64,000 bases of DNA from an uncultured Clostridiaceae bacterium. GTDB taxonomy: Bacteria > Bacillota > Clostridia > Clostridiales > Clostridiaceae. The DNA is taken from contig CAMJGD010000018.1 of assembly GCA_946405135.1 (NCBI GenBank), positions 1-64,000 of the forward strand, read 5' to 3'. A program made the position numbers and the translations under genes. The notes beneath the pieces were generated by a model. The model had not been told where the DNA came from and did no database searches. It saw nothing but the letters and a program-made list of their open reading frames with translations. Shown piece after piece: positions 60 to 46,370 of this stretch (position 1 is the first letter of the stretch; each line of letters begins with the position of its first letter).

Positions 60-884
60 TTAATCATAATTCATGTAAATTACTGTCCGTAAGTCAGATT
101 TCCCATCATCAATTTTATCTTGGGTATTACTCTTTCCAGTAGATATAGAACATATATCTTTTACCTTATACAATTTCCAATCTTCAGTAAACCCCTTAAA
201 ACGTATTTCTGGACGATTAGAACCATTTTTAGGAATCATTTTTTCAAGCATAGCTTTTTTTATATTTATCAGCTTATCATACTTACGTTGATGAAGGGTG
301 ATAAGGTTGTCGAGGCTTTGAAAAAACTGTCCAATTTGTAGTTGTTCCTTTTCTGAATCTGGATAAATTATGTCCGTGTTCTGTAGTGCTGACTTTGAGA
401 TAGATGAAATTTTTATACCTTGAATCAGTGGTAATAACTGATCATGATAAGCTCTTGAATTCATATAATATCCAAGATAACCTGTTGCAAATTTCTTGCT
501 AGGTCTACAAGGTATTGTGTGCAATCCCGAAACAATACTTGTACCATCTATTGCTTTGATTTCACTGCATTTCCCAACAGTTTCATCTTCCGCAGCATCA
601 GCAATTACGACATCTCCATTTTGCAATAATGATACACTGCTAACATTGAAATCATTATTAGAAATGAACGGTATTTCCGCTTTTTCTACATCCAAAATCT
701 CGCCAAACTTTATCAATACATCCCCATAATGAACATTTTTCACCAAACCTTGCTCATAGTTTAAATCTGCTCTTGACAATGAATTGTTCTGTAAATACAT
801 AAAGGTTTCTGAGAACTTACGCTGTTCCCACTCATCAGTAAATCCTTTAAATCTAACACTTGGCTTTTTATTTTTTTCAATCAT
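60..884 (-). CDS. hsdS: Type I restriction specificity subunit HsdS, second half truncated
   Basis: HsdS gives DNA recognition to the type I complex (HsdR2M2S). I use the ATG at 884, 6 nt after AGGTG; it starts just past the hsdM stop, so the genes are coupled. The protein shows the paired repeat layout of HsdS: a segment RFKGFTDEWEQRK near the N terminus opens target recognition domain 1, a conserved helix (LDNLITLHQRK..) follows around residue 195, and a second RFKGFTEDWK near residue 230 opens domain 2. Domain 2 then runs only through STGKSNTQDKIDDGK and ends about 10 residues later, giving about 274 residues where full-length members have about 400. Either the gene is broken, or it is one state of a recombining hsdS locus whose other half lies left of the window. 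Confidence 0.88.
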   Translation of the reverse strand: MIEKNKKPSVRFKGFTDEWEQRKFSETFMYLQNNSLSRADLNYEQGLVKNVHYGDVLIKFGEILDVEKAEIPFISNNDFNVSSVSLLQNGDVVIADAAEDETVGKCSEIKAIDGTSIVSGLHTIPCRPSKKFATGYLGYYMNSRAYHDQLLPLIQGIKISSISKSALQNTDIIYPDSEKEQLQIGQFFQSLDNLITLHQRKYDKLINIKKAMLEKMIPKNGSNRPEIRFKGFTEDWKLYKVKDICSISTGKSNTQDKIDDGKSDLRTVIYMNYD

Positions 885-885
885 A

Positions 886-3645
886 CTATTCACCTTTTAA
901 TAGCAATTGAAACTCGCTAAGCCCTTTCATATCAAATTCGTCTCCAATAAGATCATCAATTAATAATGAAAGTGCCTTTTCGGCATCACTAATCTGTTCT
1001 GCAACTGAAGCATAAGTAATTGCATATTTATCTGCTAATTTCTCAATTTTATCAACTAATTCCTTTATTATTTTATCTGGTAGTTTACTAATATTAGATA
1101 CTATTGGCTTAATCCACTTTATTTCTAGAAGTTCAAGTACTTGCTCATCTGATAGATTCTCAATCGTTTCTTTTGTCAAAAGATGTAACTCCTCTGCTTC
1201 TTTTTTAACTTGTGCCTTTAGTTCTTTTTCTTCTTCCATTAACTCACTTACTCTAACCAGTTTTTCTTCGAATGATTCTTCTTGAAATGCATAATCATAC
1301 TGCAACTCTATAATATACTTATTCACTGCCGCTTTTGCATAGGTACCATCTTTACTTGCACTCATATTGTTCCATGACACCTCTATATGATTGTTTATAT
1401 ATTCATCTTTTTCTGCTTTTGTCGCTTTTGAATCAAGTAAAGAAATATAATCATTTAACGCTCTGATTTCTTCACTTTCAACATATGAATAAATTTGCTT
1501 CAGTTCTTTACTGACTTCTTTAGATACAAATGCATCTTTTGCCTCATTGACTACACTTGATTCTTTCTCTTCTTCAGAAAGAGAATCAAGAATTTGTTCA
1601 TACTCTGATGAAATCTCCAAGATACGATTTTCTTTTTGTTTCAAATTATTTGTTTGCTCTTTTAAAAGTGTTGCCTGAATTAAATCAAAAGGAATAACAT
1701 GACCTTTCCACCCATCTTGGATCTCTTGCTCCTTACCATCCTTTTTCTTCAATACCATATTAGGATCAACTTTTTTTGCTGCATCTAATCCTTCTGTTTG
1801 GATTACTTCTAAATCAATATCCACCTTTCCCCATTCATCATCTAGTACTTGATATGCCTCATATTTATCTACTAATGGTACAGATTCCAATCTTGCGAAT
1901 ATATTATCACTAATATTAGATTCTTCTTTAGAAATGTTTATAGTACTCATATTCTCAATTAATTCATTTTTTAAATAATCACCGAAATCCGAGAATATTA
2001 ACTTATAATTATTAAAAAACTCTTTTACATCTGAATTTTCCATAATAGTATTCTTAATCTTTTCTACTGCCAACTCTACATAAGGAGTACCATTATCAGT
2101 AAATATCTCACTCTTCAGATTAGGGAATGCTTCCCAGTATTTTTTCAGTTCATTAATTTCTGACTTTGGTATTCCACCAAACATTGATGCGTATATATCC
2201 CATGTTTCAGGATTTTCTGACGAATCGACATATCTAGGAATATTTAAGTTGTAATCATTTTTACGAATTTCTTCTCTCGTTATCTTTTTTGAATATTTTT
2301 CAATGTCATCTCTATTAATAACTGTATCTGCTATTTTTTTAATATCAGATGCTCTTAGTTTATTGTTCTTTCCAACCTTTATAAATCCCTTTGACGCATC
2401 CACAATTAGTACATCAGTATTATCGCGTTTTTGTCGTAGCACCATCACAATTGTTGGTATTCCTGTTCCAAAAAATATATTAGGAGGGAGTCCAATAATT
2501 GTGTCAATATGATTGTTTTCAATTAGATTTTTTCTTATCTCTCCTTCTTCTCCTCCACGGAACAACACACCATGTGGCAGAACAATTGTCATAATTCCAT
2601 CACTCTTAATATGAAACAAATCATGAAGTAAAAAAGCATAGTCTGCTTTTGTTTTTGGCGCTAACCCAAATCTAGCATAACGTGGATCAGACTCTTTATT
2701 TGAAGGATCCCACGCTTGAGAATATGGAGGATTCGAAACCACTGCATCAACATATAAAGCTTCATATGTTGATGCAGGATCATTGTCATCAAAGAATGGC
2801 CAGTCATCCTCTAAAGTATCTCCATTTCGAGTCACAATATTGTCTGGCAATATACCACGCATTACCAAATTCATACGTGTAAGATTATATGTATTTGCTT
2901 TAAGCTCCTGTGCATAGTATTTAATATTATTTTCATCATCTATATGCTTAGCAACTGAATGACCTATATTAATTAATAATGAACCTGAACCACTAGTTGG
3001 ATCATAAATTTTAATTTCTTTTTTATCTTTTAAATGATTTGCAATAATCTCCGACATTAAAAGTGAGACTTCATGAGGTGTATAGAACTCTCCTGCCTTC
3101 TTTCCAGCATTTGCAGCAAACATACTGATTAAGTACTCATAAATAAATCCTAACACGTCATAATCTTGCTTGCCATCCATTGGAATATCTTTGATTAATT
3201 GAAGTAATGCACTAATTGCTTTTGTTTGAGCTCCAGCACTATCTCCTAGTTTGCTTAATCCAGTTTGTAATGTATTAAAAATACCGTCAAATACTTTTTT
3301 ATGTGATGGACTAATTAACCTACTAAATGCTGAAAGTGCATCTCTAACATCTGAAACATCAAAATCCTTTCCCTTATTAATCCATGTAGAAAATAAATCT
3401 TCATAAGCTATAAAATAGCCTACCCCTTTTTGAATATAATCTACTGTTTCGTAATCATCCTCAACAAGTAACTTTATATCTTCATCTGTAAAATCATTTT
3501 CTCTTAAAAACTTAAGTTCTTTATCTGATAAATATTTATAAAAAATAAATCCTAAAATGTAATCCTTGTATTCATTTGCTTCTATTTTTGAACGCATTTG
3601 ATTAGCTGATTCCCAAATTTTCGCTGCAAGTTGTTGTTTATTCAT
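886..3645 (-). CDS. hsdM: Type I restriction-modification DNA methyltransferase HsdM
   Basis: N6-adenine methyltransferase subunit of a type I system, acting on hemimethylated DNA with HsdS. The N-terminal helical HsdM domain (about residues 8-140) is followed by the methyltransferase core: FYTPHEV near 187, the SAM-binding DPTSGSGSLL at 215-224 and the catalytic NPPY at 305-308. After about residue 500 there is a long charged, Glu/Lys-rich, probably coiled-coil extension to residue 919; ordinary HsdM has about 500 residues, although long forms occur in Firmicutes. Transcribed with hsdS. No hsdR is in the window. Confidence 0.93.
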   Translation of the reverse strand: MNKQQLAAKIWESANQMRSKIEANEYKDYILGFIFYKYLSDKELKFLRENDFTDEDIKLLVEDDYETVDYIQKGVGYFIAYEDLFSTWINKGKDFDVSDVRDALSAFSRLISPSHKKVFDGIFNTLQTGLSKLGDSAGAQTKAISALLQLIKDIPMDGKQDYDVLGFIYEYLISMFAANAGKKAGEFYTPHEVSLLMSEIIANHLKDKKEIKIYDPTSGSGSLLINIGHSVAKHIDDENNIKYYAQELKANTYNLTRMNLVMRGILPDNIVTRNGDTLEDDWPFFDDNDPASTYEALYVDAVVSNPPYSQAWDPSNKESDPRYARFGLAPKTKADYAFLLHDLFHIKSDGIMTIVLPHGVLFRGGEEGEIRKNLIENNHIDTIIGLPPNIFFGTGIPTIVMVLRQKRDNTDVLIVDASKGFIKVGKNNKLRASDIKKIADTVINRDDIEKYSKKITREEIRKNDYNLNIPRYVDSSENPETWDIYASMFGGIPKSEINELKKYWEAFPNLKSEIFTDNGTPYVELAVEKIKNTIMENSDVKEFFNNYKLIFSDFGDYLKNELIENMSTINISKEESNISDNIFARLESVPLVDKYEAYQVLDDEWGKVDIDLEVIQTEGLDAAKKVDPNMVLKKKDGKEQEIQDGWKGHVIPFDLIQATLLKEQTNNLKQKENRILEISSEYEQILDSLSEEEKESSVVNEAKDAFVSKEVSKELKQIYSYVESEEIRALNDYISLLDSKATKAEKDEYINNHIEVSWNNMSASKDGTYAKAAVNKYIIELQYDYAFQEESFEEKLVRVSELMEEEKELKAQVKKEAEELHLLTKETIENLSDEQVLELLEIKWIKPIVSNISKLPDKIIKELVDKIEKLADKYAITYASVAEQISDAEKALSLLIDDLIGDEFDMKGLSEFQLLLKGE

Positions 3646-3774: not shown

Positions 3775-4578
3775 TTAAATTTGTTTTACATTATCATCAG
3801 GCTCACTATAACCGTAGTTATCTGGTGTTTCATTTATAAAACTTAGAAGTTCTGTTATCTTGCCATATGATATCTTACCATTCTCATAATTTTGTTTTGC
3901 TATTTCCAAATATTCTTTTGATACATATGATACATTGCTTGGTATTATTAGTGATATATCATAACCTTCTGTTTTCGTTATTTCTCTTAATTCTTCCTTC
4001 TTATCTAATGTTCCATAGGTAGAAAGCCTCTCATATAAACTAATATCACATAAGTCTAACTGAATAAGCCTTTTTAACATGGCTTTATAACTAACCTTTA
4101 ATGTACTATTTAGCCTTACTACATGCCTTACTTCAACTTTATCCTTATTAGTATTAACTAGTTTATAAAATAAGTCTTTTACATAATCTTCTGGCATTAA
4201 AAACTCTGATGCAAAAATATTGGTCTTTTCGTCTCCATCTCTATAAACATTATCATTGATCAATAGCTTTTCTTTTTTTAACAAATCATCATTATACAAT
4301 ATATGATAGAGTTCATGCGCTGCTGTAAACCTTTCATGACCTAAAGTGAAACTACTATTTAAAAATACAACAAACTCATTGTTAAAATAGGTTGTAAATC
4401 CAGATATATCATAGATATCTAGTGGCTTCCTTATGAAGAACGCTACATCTTCTAATATTTCAAAAATATCAACAATTCCTTTTTTAGAAAACTTATATCT
4501 TGCTTCTTCAGCTAATCCTTTAATTTTAAGTCTTAGAGGTTCATCTGGTAAGTTTAAGTCCCTTTTAGTTATACTCAT
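3775..4578 (-). CDS. ImmA/IrrE-family metallopeptidase
   Basis: The zinc-protease motif HELYH lies in AAHELYHILYND, followed further on by the glutamate-containing ASEFLMP stretch typical of the ImmA/IrrE family. Such proteases cleave or inactivate a partner XRE repressor in mobile elements and stress circuits. An upstream ATG (4596) is possible, but GGAGG lies just before the ATG at 4578, inside the last codons of the xre gene, so 4578 is the likely start and the two genes are translationally coupled. The role here (immunity control of the element, or control of the adjacent hsd genes) is inference. Confidence 0.85.
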   Translation of the reverse strand: MSITKRDLNLPDEPLRLKIKGLAEEARYKFSKKGIVDIFEILEDVAFFIRKPLDIYDISGFTTYFNNEFVVFLNSSFTLGHERFTAAHELYHILYNDDLLKKEKLLINDNVYRDGDEKTNIFASEFLMPEDYVKDLFYKLVNTNKDKVEVRHVVRLNSTLKVSYKAMLKRLIQLDLCDISLYERLSTYGTLDKKEELREITKTEGYDISLIIPSNVSYVSKEYLEIAKQNYENGKISYGKITELLSFINETPDNYGYSEPDDNVKQI

Positions 4579-4583
4579 ATAAC

Positions 4584-4967
4584 TTAACTCCTCCATAAAG
4601 GTTCTACATTATTTATAGTATTAGACTTTAAAATCTTCTTTTGATTCATAAAGCTCATAATCATCTCTTGTAGTGTTTCTACATCTTTAATTGTTTCTTC
4701 ATTCTTATTTCTCTTTCTAAATAAGGTAACTATACTATCATCTTCACTATCTTGTAATAATGTTTCTACATCTAGATCTAATACGGAACAAATAGCTTTT
4801 AGTTCAACAGCAGATACAGTTCTATTGCCATTCTCTATTTTGCTTAAGGTTTCTCTACTCATTGATATACCTAAATCTTTTAATCTATCTACCATTAACT
4901 GTTGGCTTATCTTCTTATCTTCTCTAGATTCTTTTATTCTTCCACCTATAATTACACTTGTTAGCAT
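4584..4967 (-). CDS. XRE-family helix-turn-helix regulator
   Basis: A 127-residue protein with an N-terminal HTH of the Cro/cI type (about residues 8-65: GRIKESREDKKISQQ.., then MSRETLSKIENGNR). Its C-terminal tail has no recognised domain. GGAGG lies 8 nt before the ATG. It is followed by the ImmA-type gene, the usual repressor/anti-repressor pair of integrative elements. A perfect 17-bp palindrome lies 25 bp upstream (4992-5008) and is its likely own operator. Confidence 0.88.
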   Translation of the reverse strand: MLTSVIIGGRIKESREDKKISQQLMVDRLKDLGISMSRETLSKIENGNRTVSAVELKAICSVLDLDVETLLQDSEDDSIVTLFRKRNKNEETIKDVETLQEMIMSFMNQKKILKSNTINNVEPLWRS

Positions 4968-4991
4968 AGCATATACCTCCTAACATACTAT

Positions 4992-5008
4992 TGTAATATA
5001 ATATTACA
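4992..5008. promoter_or_regulatory. Perfect palindrome, likely XRE operator
   Basis: TGTAATAT-A-ATATTACA is an exact 8+1+8 inverted repeat between the start of xre (4967) and the divergent gene at 5268. Its half site TGTAAT recurs at about 5041 and 5197 and resembles the TTGTAATC half sites in front of the cI-like gene at 12.2 kb. Binding is inferred from position and symmetry. Confidence 0.6.
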
Positions 5009-5156
5009 CCATATTATAATCAGCATCAATATGTCACTTGTAATTGTAACCATTGATCACAATCACTATACCAGTATATTGATTCCTTGATACTCATCTA
5101 CCTCTTTTAAAAGAAAAAATCACTTTCTACTTTTATTACTAGAAACTATTAGCCCC

Positions 5157-5170
5157 TGTCGGATTTGACA
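5157..5170. promoter_or_regulatory. Shared 14-bp dyad TGTCGGATTTGACA, copy 1
   Basis: An imperfect dyad (TGTC..GACA arms) identical to the site at 12147-12160 and to the reverse complement of 6924-6937. It lies about 15 bp upstream of a candidate -35 box for the gene at 5268. Probably an operator of an element-encoded regulator; which one is not known. Confidence 0.6.
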
Positions 5171-5185
5171 CATTATTTTACACCC

Positions 5186-5214
5186 TTGACTTTTATTGTA
5201 ATACATTGTATTGT
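5186..5214 (+). promoter_or_regulatory. Candidate promoter for the 5268 gene
   Basis: TTGACT (5186-5191) and TATTGT (5209-5214) are separated by 17 bp. The -35 is good and the -10 weak, which fits a regulated promoter. Confidence 0.4.
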
Positions 5215-5267
5215 TAAGCTGCTTTATAATATTCAAAATATTATTTTAATAACCTAGGAGGTGTTTG

Positions 5268-12296: not shown

Positions 12297-12315
12297 ATAT
12301 TTCGAGGTGAATATT

Positions 12316-13077
12316 ATGTTTAATAAAGAAAAATTTAGCGAATTATTAAAATCTTCTATTGGTGCAAACAGGAGCATTACTGACTTCTCAAAGGAATGCG
12401 GGGTTGCAAGACCTTACATATCTAAATTTTTAAATTGTAAATTAGAAAAAGCCCCCTCTCCTGAAATAATAAAAAAGTTTTCTAGTGTTGCTTATAATAA
12501 TATAAAGGAGGCAGACCTTTTGGACGCTGCTGGTTACGAGATAAGTGATATTGATCACTTTAATCTAACTTTTGAGGCTGCTATTGAAGATGGTTCTCTA
12601 AATAATCCTGTTTCAGATACTAGAAGCAAAATAAACAAATTGTATCTTGAAAACAACACAAGTAGCAGTATCCCAATTAGAGTTCCTGTTTTGTCTTTTA
12701 TTGATGATAAAAACATAATTTCTAATGATGATGAGAATGTAATTAGCTATGAATATGTACCTAGTACTTTAGCTTACGATGCTTCGAAATGCTTCTACTA
12801 TATAGCAGAAGATAATAGTATGTCTAATGCACGAATTCATGATGGAGATGCTGTTTTTATAATTCCAAATATAACTTATAAGCATAATGACATTGTGCTT
12901 TTATTAAAAGATGGAGAAGCTTTCTTAAGAAGATATAAGAAATTGAGTAATGTACATTTATTCCAAGCTGAAAGCAATGATTTTGATAGCTTCGCATTAA
13001 CAAATAATGATCTAAAAAATTCTAAAATTACTATTATAGGTACTGTTGAGCATATAAAGATAAGAACAAAAATTTAG
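12316..13077 (+). CDS. cI/LexA-like repressor with S24 peptidase-type domain
   Basis: 253 residues from ATG 12316, with GAGGTG 6 nt upstream; a GTG at 12307 lies inside that site. The N-terminal HTH (about 1-70) contains ITDFSKECGVARPYISKFLN. The C-terminal S24 fold has the nucleophile Ser168 in EDNSMSNARIHDGD. In the strand that normally carries the catalytic lysine, EAFLRRYKK, the expected Lys is Arg205, and no Ala-Gly cleavage site is visible in the hinge (VPVLSFIDDKN). Self-cleavage may therefore be lost. It is followed 17 bp later by the recombinase gene, so both are probably co-transcribed and controlled by the operator array upstream. Confidence 0.85.
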   Translation: MFNKEKFSELLKSSIGANRSITDFSKECGVARPYISKFLNCKLEKAPSPEIIKKFSSVAYNNIKEADLLDAAGYEISDIDHFNLTFEAAIEDGSLNNPVSDTRSKINKLYLENNTSSSIPIRVPVLSFIDDKNIISNDDENVISYEYVPSTLAYDASKCFYYIAEDNSMSNARIHDGDAVFIIPNITYKHNDIVLLLKDGEAFLRRYKKLSNVHLFQAESNDFDSFALTNNDLKNSKITIIGTVEHIKIRTKI

Positions 13078-13093
13078 GAAGGGATGATGTTTT

Positions 13094-14650
13094 TTGAATG
13101 CAGCAATATATGCAAGATATAGTTCAGATAATCAACGTGAAGAGTCCATTGATGCGCAAATCCGTGCTATAAAAGAATATGCAGATAAAAATGGAATAAT
13201 AATTACTAAGGTATACACTGATGAAGCAAGGTCAGCAACAACAGATAATAGGCCTAAATTTCTTGAAATGATAAAAGATAGTGAGTATGGACTATTCGAT
13301 GCTGTAATAGTCCATAAGCTTGATCGTTTCTCAAGAGATAGATATGATAGCGCTCATTATAAGAGAATTCTCAAAAAGAATAATGTAAGGCTTATATCAG
13401 TGCTAGAACATTTGGATGACAGTCCTGAAAGCATAATACTTGAATCAGTTCTTCAAGGCATGGCTGAATATTATTCTAAGAACTTAGCTAGAGAAGTTAT
13501 GAAAGGTATGAAAGAAACTGCTCTTCAATGTAAGCACACAGGAGGTCTTCCCCCATTAGGTTACAATGTAGATCCTGAAACAAAGAAATATATTATAAAT
13601 GAACAAGAAGCAAAATCGGTAAAGTTAATTTTTGAGATGTATTCTGAAGGACATGGCTACAATACTATAGTAGATAAACTTAACCTATTAGGCTACAAAA
13701 CTAAAATAGGAAGAAGCTTTGGTAAAAACAGCATATCAGAAATACTAAGAAACGAAAAATACATAGGTACTTTTATATTTAATAAAGCACCTAAGTCCTT
13801 CAATGGTAAGCGCAATTCACATAGAACTAAAAGTCCTGAGGAAATTATAAAAATAGAAAATGGATTACCTGCTATTATTTCAAAGGATGTTTTTGATAAA
13901 GTTCAAAAAAGAATGCTTAACAATAAAAGAAATGCTACAAATAAGGCTAAAGAAGTTTATCTATTGTCTGGAAAGATGGTTTGTGGCTGTTGTGGAGCTT
14001 CTATGGTAGGTCATACTAGTTATTCTGGAAGGAATAAAGCAAAGTACTCTACTTATAATTGCAGTGCTAGGTACAGAACAAAACAATGTGGTATGAAAAA
14101 TATACAGAAGAACTTTGTTGAGGAGCTCGTACTAAATGAAATAAAAAGTAAAATCTTAAATCCTTCCTCAATAAGAAGACTTACGAAAAAACTTATAGAA
14201 CACTATAACAAAATGCTAGATTCTAATAATGATGAATTAAAAAGTCTCGAGAAACGCCTAAAAGAAATAGATTTTGAAATCAGAAATATTGTCAATGCTA
14301 TTTCACAAGGAATGTTTCATAACTCCTTTAAAGAAAAGATGGACAGCCTAGAAGCTGAGAAAAGCAGAATCTCCAGCTATATAAATGAAATAAAAGCTAC
14401 AATGAACAGTAGCGAACTTAATGAAAAACTTATCGAGCAGTATTTAATTAAAGATATAACTGCTATAAATGAAAAAAGTGCTAATGATCTAAAAACAATC
14501 ATTAACACTTATGTAGAATCAGTTTTAGTACATGAAGATAAGGTTGACATTAACCTTATCCTCTTTTTTGTACATATCAATGGTGGAGGCGAGCCTTCAC
14601 CATACCTCATAACATATTTATGTGATAAGAATTGTTTTATAGCAAACTAA
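13094..14650 (+). CDS. Large serine recombinase (integrase)
   Basis: 518 residues with a TTG start after AGGAAGGG. The catalytic resolvase domain (1-150) opens AAIYARYSSDNQREESIDAQ with the nucleophile Ser near residue 10, followed by KLDRFSRD and the recombinase domain (about 165-260, GYNVDPETKKYIINEQEA..). A zinc ribbon with CGCCGAS and later NCSARYRTKQCG, and a coiled-coil segment (about 375-445), come next. The last about 25 codons after NGGGE diverge from anything expected and overlap a 13-bp copy of the ssrA 3' end. It mediates site-specific integration and excision of the element. Confidence 0.93.
   Translation: MNAAIYARYSSDNQREESIDAQIRAIKEYADKNGIIITKVYTDEARSATTDNRPKFLEMIKDSEYGLFDAVIVHKLDRFSRDRYDSAHYKRILKKNNVRLISVLEHLDDSPESIILESVLQGMAEYYSKNLAREVMKGMKETALQCKHTGGLPPLGYNVDPETKKYIINEQEAKSVKLIFEMYSEGHGYNTIVDKLNLLGYKTKIGRSFGKNSISEILRNEKYIGTFIFNKAPKSFNGKRNSHRTKSPEEIIKIENGLPAIISKDVFDKVQKRMLNNKRNATNKAKEVYLLSGKMVCGCCGASMVGHTSYSGRNKAKYSTYNCSARYRTKQCGMKNIQKNFVEELVLNEIKSKILNPSSIRRLTKKLIEHYNKMLDSNNDELKSLEKRLKEIDFEIRNIVNAISQGMFHNSFKEKMDSLEAEKSRISSYINEIKATMNSSELNEKLIEQYLIKDITAINEKSANDLKTIINTYVESVLVHEDKVDINLILFFVHINGGGEPSPYLITYLCDKNCFIAN
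14581..14593 (+). repeat. 13-bp copy of the ssrA 3' end (att-like)
   Basis: TGGTGGAGGCGAG is identical to 15611-15623, which on the minus strand encodes the CCA-terminal end of tmRNA. It lies in the last codons of the recombinase gene, as is often seen when an integrase gene abuts its attachment site. Confidence 0.55.
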
Positions 14651-15163: not shown

Positions 15164-15574
15164 ATGACTTCTGAAGAAAAAGCTTATATAGCTGGTATTA
15201 TTGATGGTGAAGGTAGCATTATGCTTTTAAAGTTTCATAATAATCAATTTCCTTCTCCTTGCATAAGCATCAGTTCAACCACTATTGAATTATTACAATG
15301 GATAAAAGATGTAACTAATATTGGCTCAATAAAAAGCAAGAAAAATTACAACCAAGAAAAGCATACTAATTCTTTTGCTTATACCATAAAGTATAACGAT
15401 GTTATAAATCTTTTGGTAGAAATCGAACCATATTTAGTAATTGAGAGTAAAAAGAAAAGAGCTAGATTAATAATTAAAAAATACAAAGAAGTTACTCCTA
15501 GAAACGGAAGATATTCTAAAGAAATGCTTGAAGCTAAAGAAAAGTTTTATGAAGAATTTATTAGTATAAAATAG
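15164..15574 (+). CDS. LAGLIDADG homing endonuclease, single motif
   Basis: 136 residues from ATG 15164 (GGTGAT just upstream; ATG 15152 and TTG 15137 are in frame). The LAGLIDADG signature reads YIAGIIDGEGS at 8-18 with the acidic catalytic residue, followed by a strand-rich domain (CISISSTTIELLQWIKDVTNIGSI) and a Lys-rich tail. One motif implies a homodimer. It is convergent with ssrA, 36 bp from the tmRNA 3' end, with a shared terminator between them. It is not inside the ssrA intron, but the proximity suggests it once served, or still serves, intron mobility. Confidence 0.85.
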   Translation: MTSEEKAYIAGIIDGEGSIMLLKFHNNQFPSPCISISSTTIELLQWIKDVTNIGSIKSKKNYNQEKHTNSFAYTIKYNDVINLLVEIEPYLVIESKKKRARLIIKKYKEVTPRNGRYSKEMLEAKEKFYEEFISIK

Positions 15575-15576
15575 GT

Positions 15577-15606
15577 AAAACCCACCACATCTCTGTGGTG
15601 GGTTTT
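15577..15606. terminator. Bidirectional terminator between endonuclease gene and ssrA
   Basis: AAAACCCACCACA pairs perfectly with TGTGGTGGGTTTT over a 4-nt loop, with U-rich tails for both strands. Confidence 0.9.
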
Positions 15607-15627
15607 CTATTGGTGGAGGCGAGGGGA

Positions 15628-15906
15628 CATGCTATTCCATTATTTATAATGGCACTGACTATGTTTTGAACTTAATATTATTAAGTCCCTTGGCGTATTA
15701 TGAAAGCCATAATATAGTTTTGTAGCTTCCATCCTAGTACTTCCTGCTAACCCTAAGAGTTAGTTTAGAAGCCTATGAGTCGATACACGGCTGTTGAATT
15801 TCTTCACATACCACTCGGCATTACCGTCACCTTTCAGTGTTACGGCTTCACCGATAAAGCCAAGTTATCACTTCTAGATCACTCTAGAAGGCGACTCTAA
15901 TTATGA
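15628..15906 (-). other. ORF-less group I intron in the T-loop of ssrA
   Basis: 279 nt between T-loop positions 59 and 60. The exon end CGAU plus intron UC pairs with GAGUCG around a 7-nt loop, putting a U-G wobble exactly at the 5' splice site, as required for group I P1. The intron ends in G (15628). A GACU (15781 region) and a late ACAUAGUC (about 15655-15662) match the two P7 halves of the core. No reading frame fits inside, so it would self-splice or need host factors. Confidence 0.82.
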
Positions 15907-16115
15907 ATCGAACCCCTGTCCGAAAGTAGATCTGCCCAGGCATCTCCGAGTGCAGTCAGTAGTTTAACATTCCCTCTATAAGGCGCTTACTGACAGGCTC
16001 CTTACTTTAGTAGCTTCATAAATTCCGTTCACACCTCAAAGCTTTGGTGCGCTCGGTTCCCCACTGTCGACGCCAGACTCTAAGCCGTGGGCCTCTTAGG
16101 CTGACGAGCCGCTAA

Positions 16116-16145
16116 CTAAGCAGCTAATGCAAAATTATCTTCTGC
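16116..16145 (-). other. tmRNA tag reading frame
   Basis: From the resume codon GCA the frame encodes AEDNFALAA followed by UAG. With the tRNA-borne alanine this is the degradation tag; the ALAA end is recognised by ClpXP-type proteases. Confidence 0.9.
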
Positions 16146-16318
16146 GTTTACATTTAATCCCTAGTTTTTTAAGGCGGGTCCAGAGTTCCCTCCACTCGCT
16201 TCCCGAACACCTCTTACCCCCGTCGAAACCATTACGCCCCCATGTTTTAAACGCAGGTTTGGGTTAGGAGATATTCTAGAACTTATATTAAGTTTTAAAA
16301 TAAATCATGTAAGACATT

Positions 16319-16684: not shown

Positions 16685-17152
16685 TTATCTATACTTTTCT
16701 TTCATTTGTCTTTCTATTTCCCTCTTATGTGCCTTTTCAAGCATTGCATCTCTTTTATCATAGTTTTTCTTACCTTTAGCCACTCCAATAGCAACTTTCA
16801 CTCTCCCGTTTTTTAGGTATAAAGAAAGTGGTACTAAAGTATACCCATCTTGAGCGGATCTTGCTGATAATGTATATATTTCTCCCTTATGGAGAAGAAG
16901 TTTTCTATCTCTTAAAGGGTCTACGTTAAATATGTTTCCTTGCTCATAAGGACTTACATGCATATTTCTTACATATATTTCTCCATTTCTTATCTCAGCA
17001 TAACTGTCTTTAAGATTTGCTCTTCCTGATCTTATAGATTTAACTTCTGTACCTACAAGAGCAATACCAGCTTCATAAGTATCTTCTATAAAATAATCAT
17101 GCCATGCTTTTCTATTTTCTGCTAAGGTTTTAGTATTACTGCTTTTCCCCAT
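16685..17152 (-). CDS. smpB: tmRNA-binding protein SmpB
   Basis: 155 residues, the normal family length. It shows the beta-barrel signatures [39 protein letters not shown] and HVSPYEQGN, and the basic C-terminal tail ([26 protein letters not shown]) that mimics mRNA in the ribosome. It lies upstream of ssrA on the same strand with its own terminator. Confidence 0.98.
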
Positions 17153-40869: not shown

Positions 40870-42171
40870 TTATTCAAAAACTTTTTGTCCCTCCACTGGT
40901 GTTTCTAGGGCATTTAATGCTTTTTCCACCAATTTATATCTTAATTCATACTCATCTTTAGGATCCAAAGCAGGATTACCTAATGGGTGAGGTATGGCTA
41001 CAGTTGGAACTATTCTGTTGGCTCCTACTGTAAGAGATATTGGAACTACTGTACACATATGAACAACTGGAAGACCAGCTCTTTCAATTTCTTTAACTAG
41101 CGTTGCACCGCAACGTGTACAAGTTCCTCAAGTAGAGGTTAATATAACTGCAGTTACTCCATCTGCTAATAGCTTTTTAGCTATTTCTTCACCATATTTT
41201 TTAGAAGATGCAACAGCTGTTCCATTTCCTACTGTAGTATAGAAATATTTGTGAATGGAACCTATCTTTCCTTCCTTCTCCATATCTCTCAAAACATCTA
41301 CAGGTAATACTCTATTTGGATCAGTATTAGCATAAGTTGGGTCATATCCGCCATGAGCAGTTTCATGAGTTTCAGAAGTTAATTTCATTACTCCTTCTAT
41401 AGAATATTCACCATATTTTGAAGCACTGGAAGATTCTATATGATCAGGATTTCCTTTAGGAACTATACCTCCTGATGTAACTAACGCAATCTTTGCCTTT
41501 TTTATATCTACTACTGGAGCATTAGGTTCTACCCTATCAAATACAGGCATTTTAAACTCTGTAACAAACTCTTCGCCTTTTAACTTTTTAACTAGCATAT
41601 CTACGGCTCTTTTTGAACCTCTTTGATCAGCAAAGTAATTCTTTCTTATACCTCTTTCTATATATCCTTCTTCCTTTGGTGATAGCACTTCTTCACCTTT
41701 ACCAAGTTTTAAGGCTAATTTAGCTATTTTAGGTAGAGCATCTCTCATACCTACAGCACTATTTTTAGTCTCTACAATGTAAAGGAACTTTTTGTACATA
41801 TCTGCACCAGGATTTTCTGGATACATAGCAGTAAGAACTGGTATATTTAACTTTTCCTCAACTTCTTTTGCTATAGTACCACAAGCAACTCCATATCTTC
41901 CTGCATTAAATGCAGGTCCAGCTATAAACAAATCAGGATTATATTTTTTCACCATTTCAATAACTTCTGCTTTTGCCTCTTCTATGTTTTCATTGAAATA
42001 GGAATCACCGCATATAACTGTGGCTACTATTTGAGCCTCGCCTTTAAATAATCCATTAAGACCCATTCCAGGTCCTACAAAACCTTCTCTTACTTCTGGT
42101 TTTATATCAGCTTTTTCTTCTCCGCCAATACCAGCATAGAATTGATTTATATAATGCACTACACGTATCAA
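40870..42171 (-). CDS. grdB: Glycine reductase component B, selenoprotein subunit
   Basis: About 433 residues with an in-frame UGA at 41130-41128 read as selenocysteine 348: ILTST-Sec-GTCTRCGATL, the conserved GrdB site. Start chosen at TTG 42171, 5 nt after GGGGGGAG, giving MIRVVHYINQFYAGIGGEEKAD; an upstream ATG at 42189 lies before that site. It binds glycine as a Schiff base with the GrdE pyruvoyl group and passes the carboxymethyl group to GrdA. A gene caller without recoding splits this gene into two at 41128. Confidence 0.95.
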
Positions 42172-46029: not shown

Positions 46030-46066
46030 ACAGAGAATAAAGCCCTTAAATGTCTTTATGCTCTGT
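46030..46066 (-). terminator. Riboswitch expression-platform terminator
   Basis: On the minus strand ACAGAGCATAAAG pairs with CTTTATTCTCTGT and is followed by eight U. Its 5' arm begins directly after the second aptamer, so ligand binding can prevent its formation. Confidence 0.88.
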
Positions 46067-46222
46067 CTTTTAACCTGAGAGAATTACTCCTTCGGTGCTT
46101 GCGCTTTCCAGAGTTGTGTCCTACTTCGGTTCTTTTGCCTGAGAGATTCATAGTATATGGGCTATACTACTTATTCCTTCGGCTATCATCATTAATTATA
46201 AGATGATCATCTCCCGAAATTA
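46067..46222 (-). promoter_or_regulatory. Tandem glycine riboswitch
   Basis: Aptamer 1 (about 46222-46140) shows CGGGAGAU.., GCCGAAGGAAUAAG and AAUCUCUCAGGCAAAAGAACCG. Aptamer 2 follows with CCGAAGUAGGACACAACUCUGG, AGCACCGAAGGAGUAA and UUCUCUCAGGUAAAAGAC. Both carry the conserved GCCGAAGGA-type and CUCAGGYAAAAG elements. Followed by a terminator, so glycine most likely switches the grd operon on. Confidence 0.93.
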
Positions 46223-46370
46223 TCATCCACACCATATTTGTTATAATTTTCACTTTTATTATACAATAAAAGTCGAAAAACTTCTATCTATTTTTCATCA
46301 GGATACTATTTCATTTATTAATAGCTGCTATTTGAAATAAATATAATAATATATAATTCCTAAATAATCA

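Follow-up and report, generated by a model that had tools for sequence, protein, structure and literature searches.

A group I intron splits ssrA next to a free-standing LAGLIDADG gene: a probable case of homing in trans in an uncultured Clostridiaceae bacterium

The ssrA gene of an uncultured Clostridiaceae bacterium is interrupted in its T-loop by an ORF-less group I intron, and a gene for a LAGLIDADG protein, convergent with ssrA and outside the intron, ends 36 bp from ssrA. We consider it probable that the two work together: the intron would splice itself out of the ssrA transcript, and the free-standing enzyme would mobilise it in trans. The split ssrA is a further example of an already known form; the neighbouring gene is the new part. 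It fell outside both the interval and the feature list of the original prediction. An ORF past the tmRNA end was first noticed in another locus (L070), and its counterpart was then found in the window, by which we mean the whole 64,000-nt stretch analysed.

Structure of the split ssrA gene

All parts of ssrA lie on the reverse (-) strand. Exon 1 (15907..16241, 335 nt) reaches T-loop nucleotide 6 and has the 3′ end GGGGTTCGAT. It is followed by a 279-nt intron (15628..15906), which starts with UCAUAAUU and whose last nucleotide, at 15628, is the predicted G. Exon 2 (15611..15627) supplies the final 17 nt (UCCCCUCGCCUCCACCA) and reads TCCCCTCGCCTCCACCA. The intron boundary is unambiguous, since with any shift the 5′ splice site no longer has its U.G pair, or the intron no longer ends in G.

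Joining the exons yields the T-arm AGGGG-UUCGAUU-CCCCU and the acceptor stem GGGGGCG/CGCCUCC, as the original prediction had claimed. ARAGORN recognises the joined exons as a complete tmRNA with the tag AEDNFALAA, and found no tmRNA in the window or in the unjoined ssrA stretch. The tag reading frame, which ends in a stop codon, occupies 16116..16145 (-), nucleotides 97-126 of the spliced RNA. The joined molecule thus has paired ends that form a tRNA-like domain, a resume frame with a tag ending in ALAA, and a 3′ CCA. The Rfam tmRNA model (RF00023), one of the checks proposed at the outset, matched 16233..15904 with 114.9 bits and left the last nucleotides of the gene unplaced.

Immediately upstream of ssrA lies smpB, which encodes the protein partner of tmRNA (16685..17152, -; PF01668, 210 bits). 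On the other side, the inverted repeat AAACCCACCACA/TGTGGTGGGTTT (15579..15606) separates ssrA from the convergent LAGLIDADG gene; it resembles a terminator and may act as one.

In the draft genome (3.69 Mb, 71 contigs, 99.98% complete), the RF00023 search found no second tmRNA above the cut-off; the weaker matches were short stretches below it. An intact second ssrA, beside which this copy might be silent, had been raised as a possibility in the original prediction and was not found. Because exon 2 holds the 3′ strands of both the T-stem and the acceptor stem, tmRNA function, and with it ribosome rescue, can fairly be expected to depend on splicing.

Elsewhere in the window are the specificity and methylase genes of a Type I restriction-modification system (60-3645, -), a tandem glycine riboswitch (46061-46226, -) and a bacterial selenocysteine insertion element (SECIS_4; 41090-41127, -). 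The latter two suggest glycine metabolism and a selenoprotein.

Fold and homologues of the intron

In a first comparison, a homologous insertion of 266-315 nt was present at the same place in 10 relatives, and in 9 others, which are intron-less, the T-arm was continuous with the 3′ end, giving an exact empty site. These continuous relatives, together with covarying homologous introns at the same site, show that the split is not a product of chance.

We aligned 11 homologous introns with MAFFT without a structural reference and drew the fold by hand. It comprises P1, P2, P3, P4, P5, P6/P6a, P7, P7.1, P7.2, P8 and P9, and 98.2% of its cells are paired in the 11 introns, versus 32-42% in slid controls. 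Two-sided changes occur in 33 of the 73 pairs, some of them in P3. P3-P9 are conserved and P7 pairs across P3, in the P3/P7 pseudoknot geometry of the group I core. In our reading, P7.1 and P7.2 suggest an IA2-like subgroup.

In P1 (15892..15910, -), exon CGAU and intron UC pair with GAGUCG and place the U.G at the 5′ splice site. This hairpin had been proposed from the start and is paired in 11/11 aligned introns. The T-G is kept in 49/52 members of a wider set of matches, and one locus (L060) has C-A instead. The predicted P7-like pairing held in outline: the 5′ strand is GACU(C)AU, with one bulged base (15775..15781, -), and the 3′ strand AUAGUC (15657..15662, -). P7 is invariant or nearly so across the 52 matches, so it is supported by conservation and shows no covariation. 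With exact exon boundaries, the splice-site pair, the terminal G and covarying P1-P9, the central claim of an ORF-less group I intron in the ssrA T-loop is borne out.

The second proposed check, against the Rfam model Intron_gpI (RF00028), gave no match in the genome as a whole, none in the window when run at the gathering cut-off, and none at the locus even at E <= 10, though the intron is real. We therefore built our own covariance model, R1. It scored the window intron at 317.7 bits as its one match in the genome, and no second intron copy was found by this search. For a 2025 survey and tmRNA database, a separate tmRNA_intron model had to be built as well (PMC11915505), so we regard the Intron_gpI miss as a limit of that model and not as evidence against the fold. 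Across 226 genomes of the order, R1 detected 50 clear cases, a count that leaves out two further matches of ~37 bits. The intron form, which had been called rare, is thus not very rare in this group.

Some R1 matches stood apart. At five loci (L064, L065, L067, L068 and L069) the matches were weaker, and a pattern search found no tmRNA signature with a T-arm; they are possibly related introns elsewhere, or divergent or cut tmRNA genes. A metagenome-assembled Gracilibacteraceae bacterium (G491; L070/L170) carries the intron twice, at a distance of 2.35 kb: one copy sits in a complete tmRNA gene, and the other, which has a 3′ exon but no recognisable exon 1, is followed by the endonuclease gene.

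It might be asked whether the gene is inactive here, or the insertion a decayed, non-functional ribozyme. We regard this as extremely improbable, as the genome search gave no other tmRNA, smpB lies alongside, the window intron has all of its core helices intact, and the joined exons are perfect.

Relation to known intron-form tmRNA genes

Intron-form tmRNA genes were reportedly described by Williams in 2002. The 2025 survey counts 883 unique genes of this kind in 21 phyla, mostly Bacillota, and places most of the introns at T-loop position 7 (PMC11915505). On our reading of its numbering, the window intron sits at this very position. It also shares the features by which such genes are recognised there (a site in the T-loop, a -1 U with G in P1, a terminal G and a loop restored by joining) and the length of ~280 nt, and the window gene itself differs in nothing from this form. 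The C-A at L060 is a recurrence of the rare variant with -1 C and A in P1 that the same source reports.

The tmRNA intron of Clostridium botulinum, 287 nt long, self-splices in vitro and has been studied with the substrate 5′-CGAU-3′ (PMC2729099). It interrupts the same gene after the same 5′ exon CGAU and is of similar length (287 vs 279 nt). Self-splicing has been demonstrated for that intron; by analogy, the window intron would also be expected to self-splice with guanosine as cofactor.

The neighbouring LAGLIDADG gene

The free-standing gene (15164..15574, +) encodes 136 aa from ATG 15164, in a frame open from TTG 15137. Its product matches Pfam LAGLIDADG_1 (PF00961) with 25.4 bits against a cut-off of 23.1 and carries the motif IAGIIDGEG, with its acid. 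The AlphaFold model has a pLDDT of 95.8 and, among solved structures, most resembles those of I-CreI and I-MsoI (Z 14.4, with an rmsd of 2.0-2.3 for 124 residues). We therefore predict that the protein is a homing endonuclease that would cleave DNA sequence-specifically. Compared with its intact relatives, the window gene gives pN/pS values from 0.15 to 0.38, and these sequence comparisons indicate purifying selection.

The likeness to these two single-motif LAGLIDADG enzymes covers fold, length class and 20-27% identity. I-CreI and I-MsoI are encoded inside rRNA introns, whereas the window gene lies outside its presumed partner intron. Both act as homodimers on near-palindromic sites. The ssrA T-arm, AGGGG TTCGATT CCCCT, is an inverted repeat, which would fit an enzyme of this kind.

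The PHROGs label for this enzyme family is HNH endonuclease, and the predicted fold of the window protein is LAGLIDADG. Just past the gene lie, on the forward strand, an S24 repressor-like gene and a large serine integrase (phrog_95; 12307-14650), which are probably what is left of a prophage or integrative element beside ssrA.

Linkage of intron and enzyme within the order

We searched the same 226 genomes for the enzyme at E <= 1e-8, a threshold that may miss decayed copies, and obtained matches in 47. The enzyme was present in 31/50 intron-bearing and 16/176 intron-less genomes. When only intact copies were counted (at least 130 aligned residues and no stop), the figures were 23/50 and 3/176 (p 1e-14). 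Many of these genomes are drafts and those of one genus are not independent; stratified by genus, the association persisted (p 4e-8), and in the largest genus the counts were 7/15 vs 0/53. Chance adjacency of enzyme and ssrA is excluded by these counts.

At the same threshold, 19/50 intron-bearing genomes had no enzyme match, so the pairing is not obligatory. Such gaps are expected if the enzyme decays once the intron is fixed, yet they also weaken the link. They bear further on whether the protein might be a maturase that aids splicing, as in some fungal mitochondrial introns, and no homing enzyme. LAGLIDADG maturases do exist, the fold matches include 1p8k, a bifunctional enzyme/splicing factor, as well as the bI3 maturase, and a role in splicing would likewise yield conservation and linkage. 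The 19 intron-bearing genomes without a copy speak against it, as does self-splicing of the C. botulinum intron in vitro (PMC2729099). In addition, all aligned copies but that of one genome, G208, retain the motif acid E16, for which a pure maturase would have no use. We consider a maturase very improbable and retain the homing enzyme as the preferred reading.

Wherever an enzyme copy shared a contig with a located ssrA, it lay downstream and convergent, at distances from 41 bp to 55 kb. In several displaced cases (L140, L163, L194), part of the 3′ end of ssrA persists near the enzyme gene. In G208 (L131), where ssrA is intact and lacks the intron, a tyrosine-recombinase-like ORF (4266-5234, -) directly follows it, and a displaced 3′ end of ssrA, GGAGTTCGATTCTCCTCGCCTCCACCA, lies ~2.9 kb further on (~2480-2520, -). 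Between this displaced end and a mutated enzyme gene is a 437-aa ORF with the LAGLIDADG-like motifs WLGLLYADGCV and IRGYMDGDGCI. The arrangement is that of an island integrated at ssrA. The displaced genes with their 3′-end remnants and the integrase-like gene of G208 are what would be expected if islands integrate at ssrA and displace the enzyme gene.

Target site and co-inheritance

We defined a splice-permissive T-loop as TTCGAT[TA]. Among genomes with this loop, the enzyme was intact in 23/50 with the intron and 0/27 without it (p 5e-6), the 27 being a sample of such genomes; this tends to favour a target shared by enzyme and intron. The contrast should not be over-read, since the intron itself requires the -1 U and most intron-less loops in the order are TTCGACA or TTCGACT. 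The sole intron-less genome with TTCGAT[TA] and a full-length enzyme ORF is G208, in which IIDGEGS has become IIDSKGS, with loss of the motif acid.

Two intron-less genomes, G152 and G153, have an intact enzyme and the T-loop TTCGACA. Together with G208, they suggest that without the intron the enzyme stays intact only where its target has escaped; this is weakly supported, because TTCGAT[TA] is also absent in 43/60 enzyme-less, intron-less relatives, a baseline that weakens arguments from single cases.

Intron and enzyme distances show a partial correlation, given exon 1, of 0.51 over 42 loci and a modest 0.27 in Bacillota. These values are compatible with joint descent and do not prove co-transfer.

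Wider relatives of the enzyme

From a scan of GTDB genomes we kept the best 80 relatives of the enzyme. Among these, 57 adjoin the ssrA intron family, 9 more adjoin intron-less tmRNAs with intact 3′ ends, and Rfam detected one further tmRNA beside a relative (L188). Their hosts include Clostridium, Tissierella and Bacillus as well as Gammaproteobacteria, Nitrospira and others. Where the host belongs to Proteobacteria or Nitrospirota, the enzyme gene also lies just downstream of ssrA, but co-directionally, so that the pairing must have arisen, or been rearranged, repeatedly. At the non-Bacillota loci with an intron match, the co-directional gene is roughly 90-220 bp downstream. On two putative viral contigs (L219 and L228), a relative of the enzyme gene has an intron-less tmRNA as its neighbour.

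The LAGLIDADG gene could also be an independent selfish gene with its target in the ssrA 3′ end or terminator, whose association with the intron is indirect and reflects the same locus and hosts. The nine relatives next to tmRNAs without the intron agree with this, as does the fact that ssrA is well known as a landing site of mobile elements. Such a gene is harder to reconcile with the strong association with the intron within genera, with the 0/27 intact enzymes next to permissive intron-less loops, and with a position always on the 3′ side of ssrA, yet in both orientations. We therefore regard it as unlikely, and favour an enzyme that serves the intron. With somewhat less confidence than for the window pair itself, we think it rather likely that one ssrA-specific endonuclease family, encoded beside the intron, mobilises the tmRNA introns of several phyla in trans.

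Proposed mechanism of homing in trans

In the mechanism that we propose, the intron would excise itself with a guanosine cofactor and the exons would join, a step without which the tRNA-like domain could not form. No endonuclease is encoded within the intron. Most likely, the LAGLIDADG enzyme would cut ssrA copies that lack the intron, in or close to the T-arm, and repair from the donor chromosome would copy the intron together with the endonuclease gene, which could be carried along because it is only about 50-460 bp away. By breaking the target of the enzyme, the intron would protect the chromosome of the host.

In phages, collaborative homing pairs a free-standing endonuclease with an ORF-less intron that shares one target site with it (reviewed in PMC3984707). 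The present locus likewise combines an ORF-less group I intron with a linked, nearby free-standing endonuclease gene; here, however, the pair resides in cellular chromosomes, in a gene for a structural RNA, the enzyme is of the LAGLIDADG type, and the shared target is presumed.

The 2025 survey counts only endonuclease genes inside introns (36/883, 4.1% of tmRNA introns vs 54% of archaeal rRNA introns), and its accessible part makes no mention of a gene beside ssrA (PMC11915505). Our literature search, in which this survey was the one relevant source listed, likewise found no published description of an ssrA-adjacent LAGLIDADG or homing endonuclease gene, although an earlier mention in the older key literature is possible.

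If the proposed mechanism is correct, the pair would be a chromosomal collaborative-homing system that explains why few tmRNA introns carry endonuclease genes, and an enzyme encoded outside the intron would offer a testable explanation of the gap between 4.1% and 54% seen in the survey (PMC11915505). Homing in trans, of which we know descriptions only in phages so far, would then reach a highly conserved gene of bacterial chromosomes in several phyla, and the neighbouring homing gene may explain how tmRNA introns spread.
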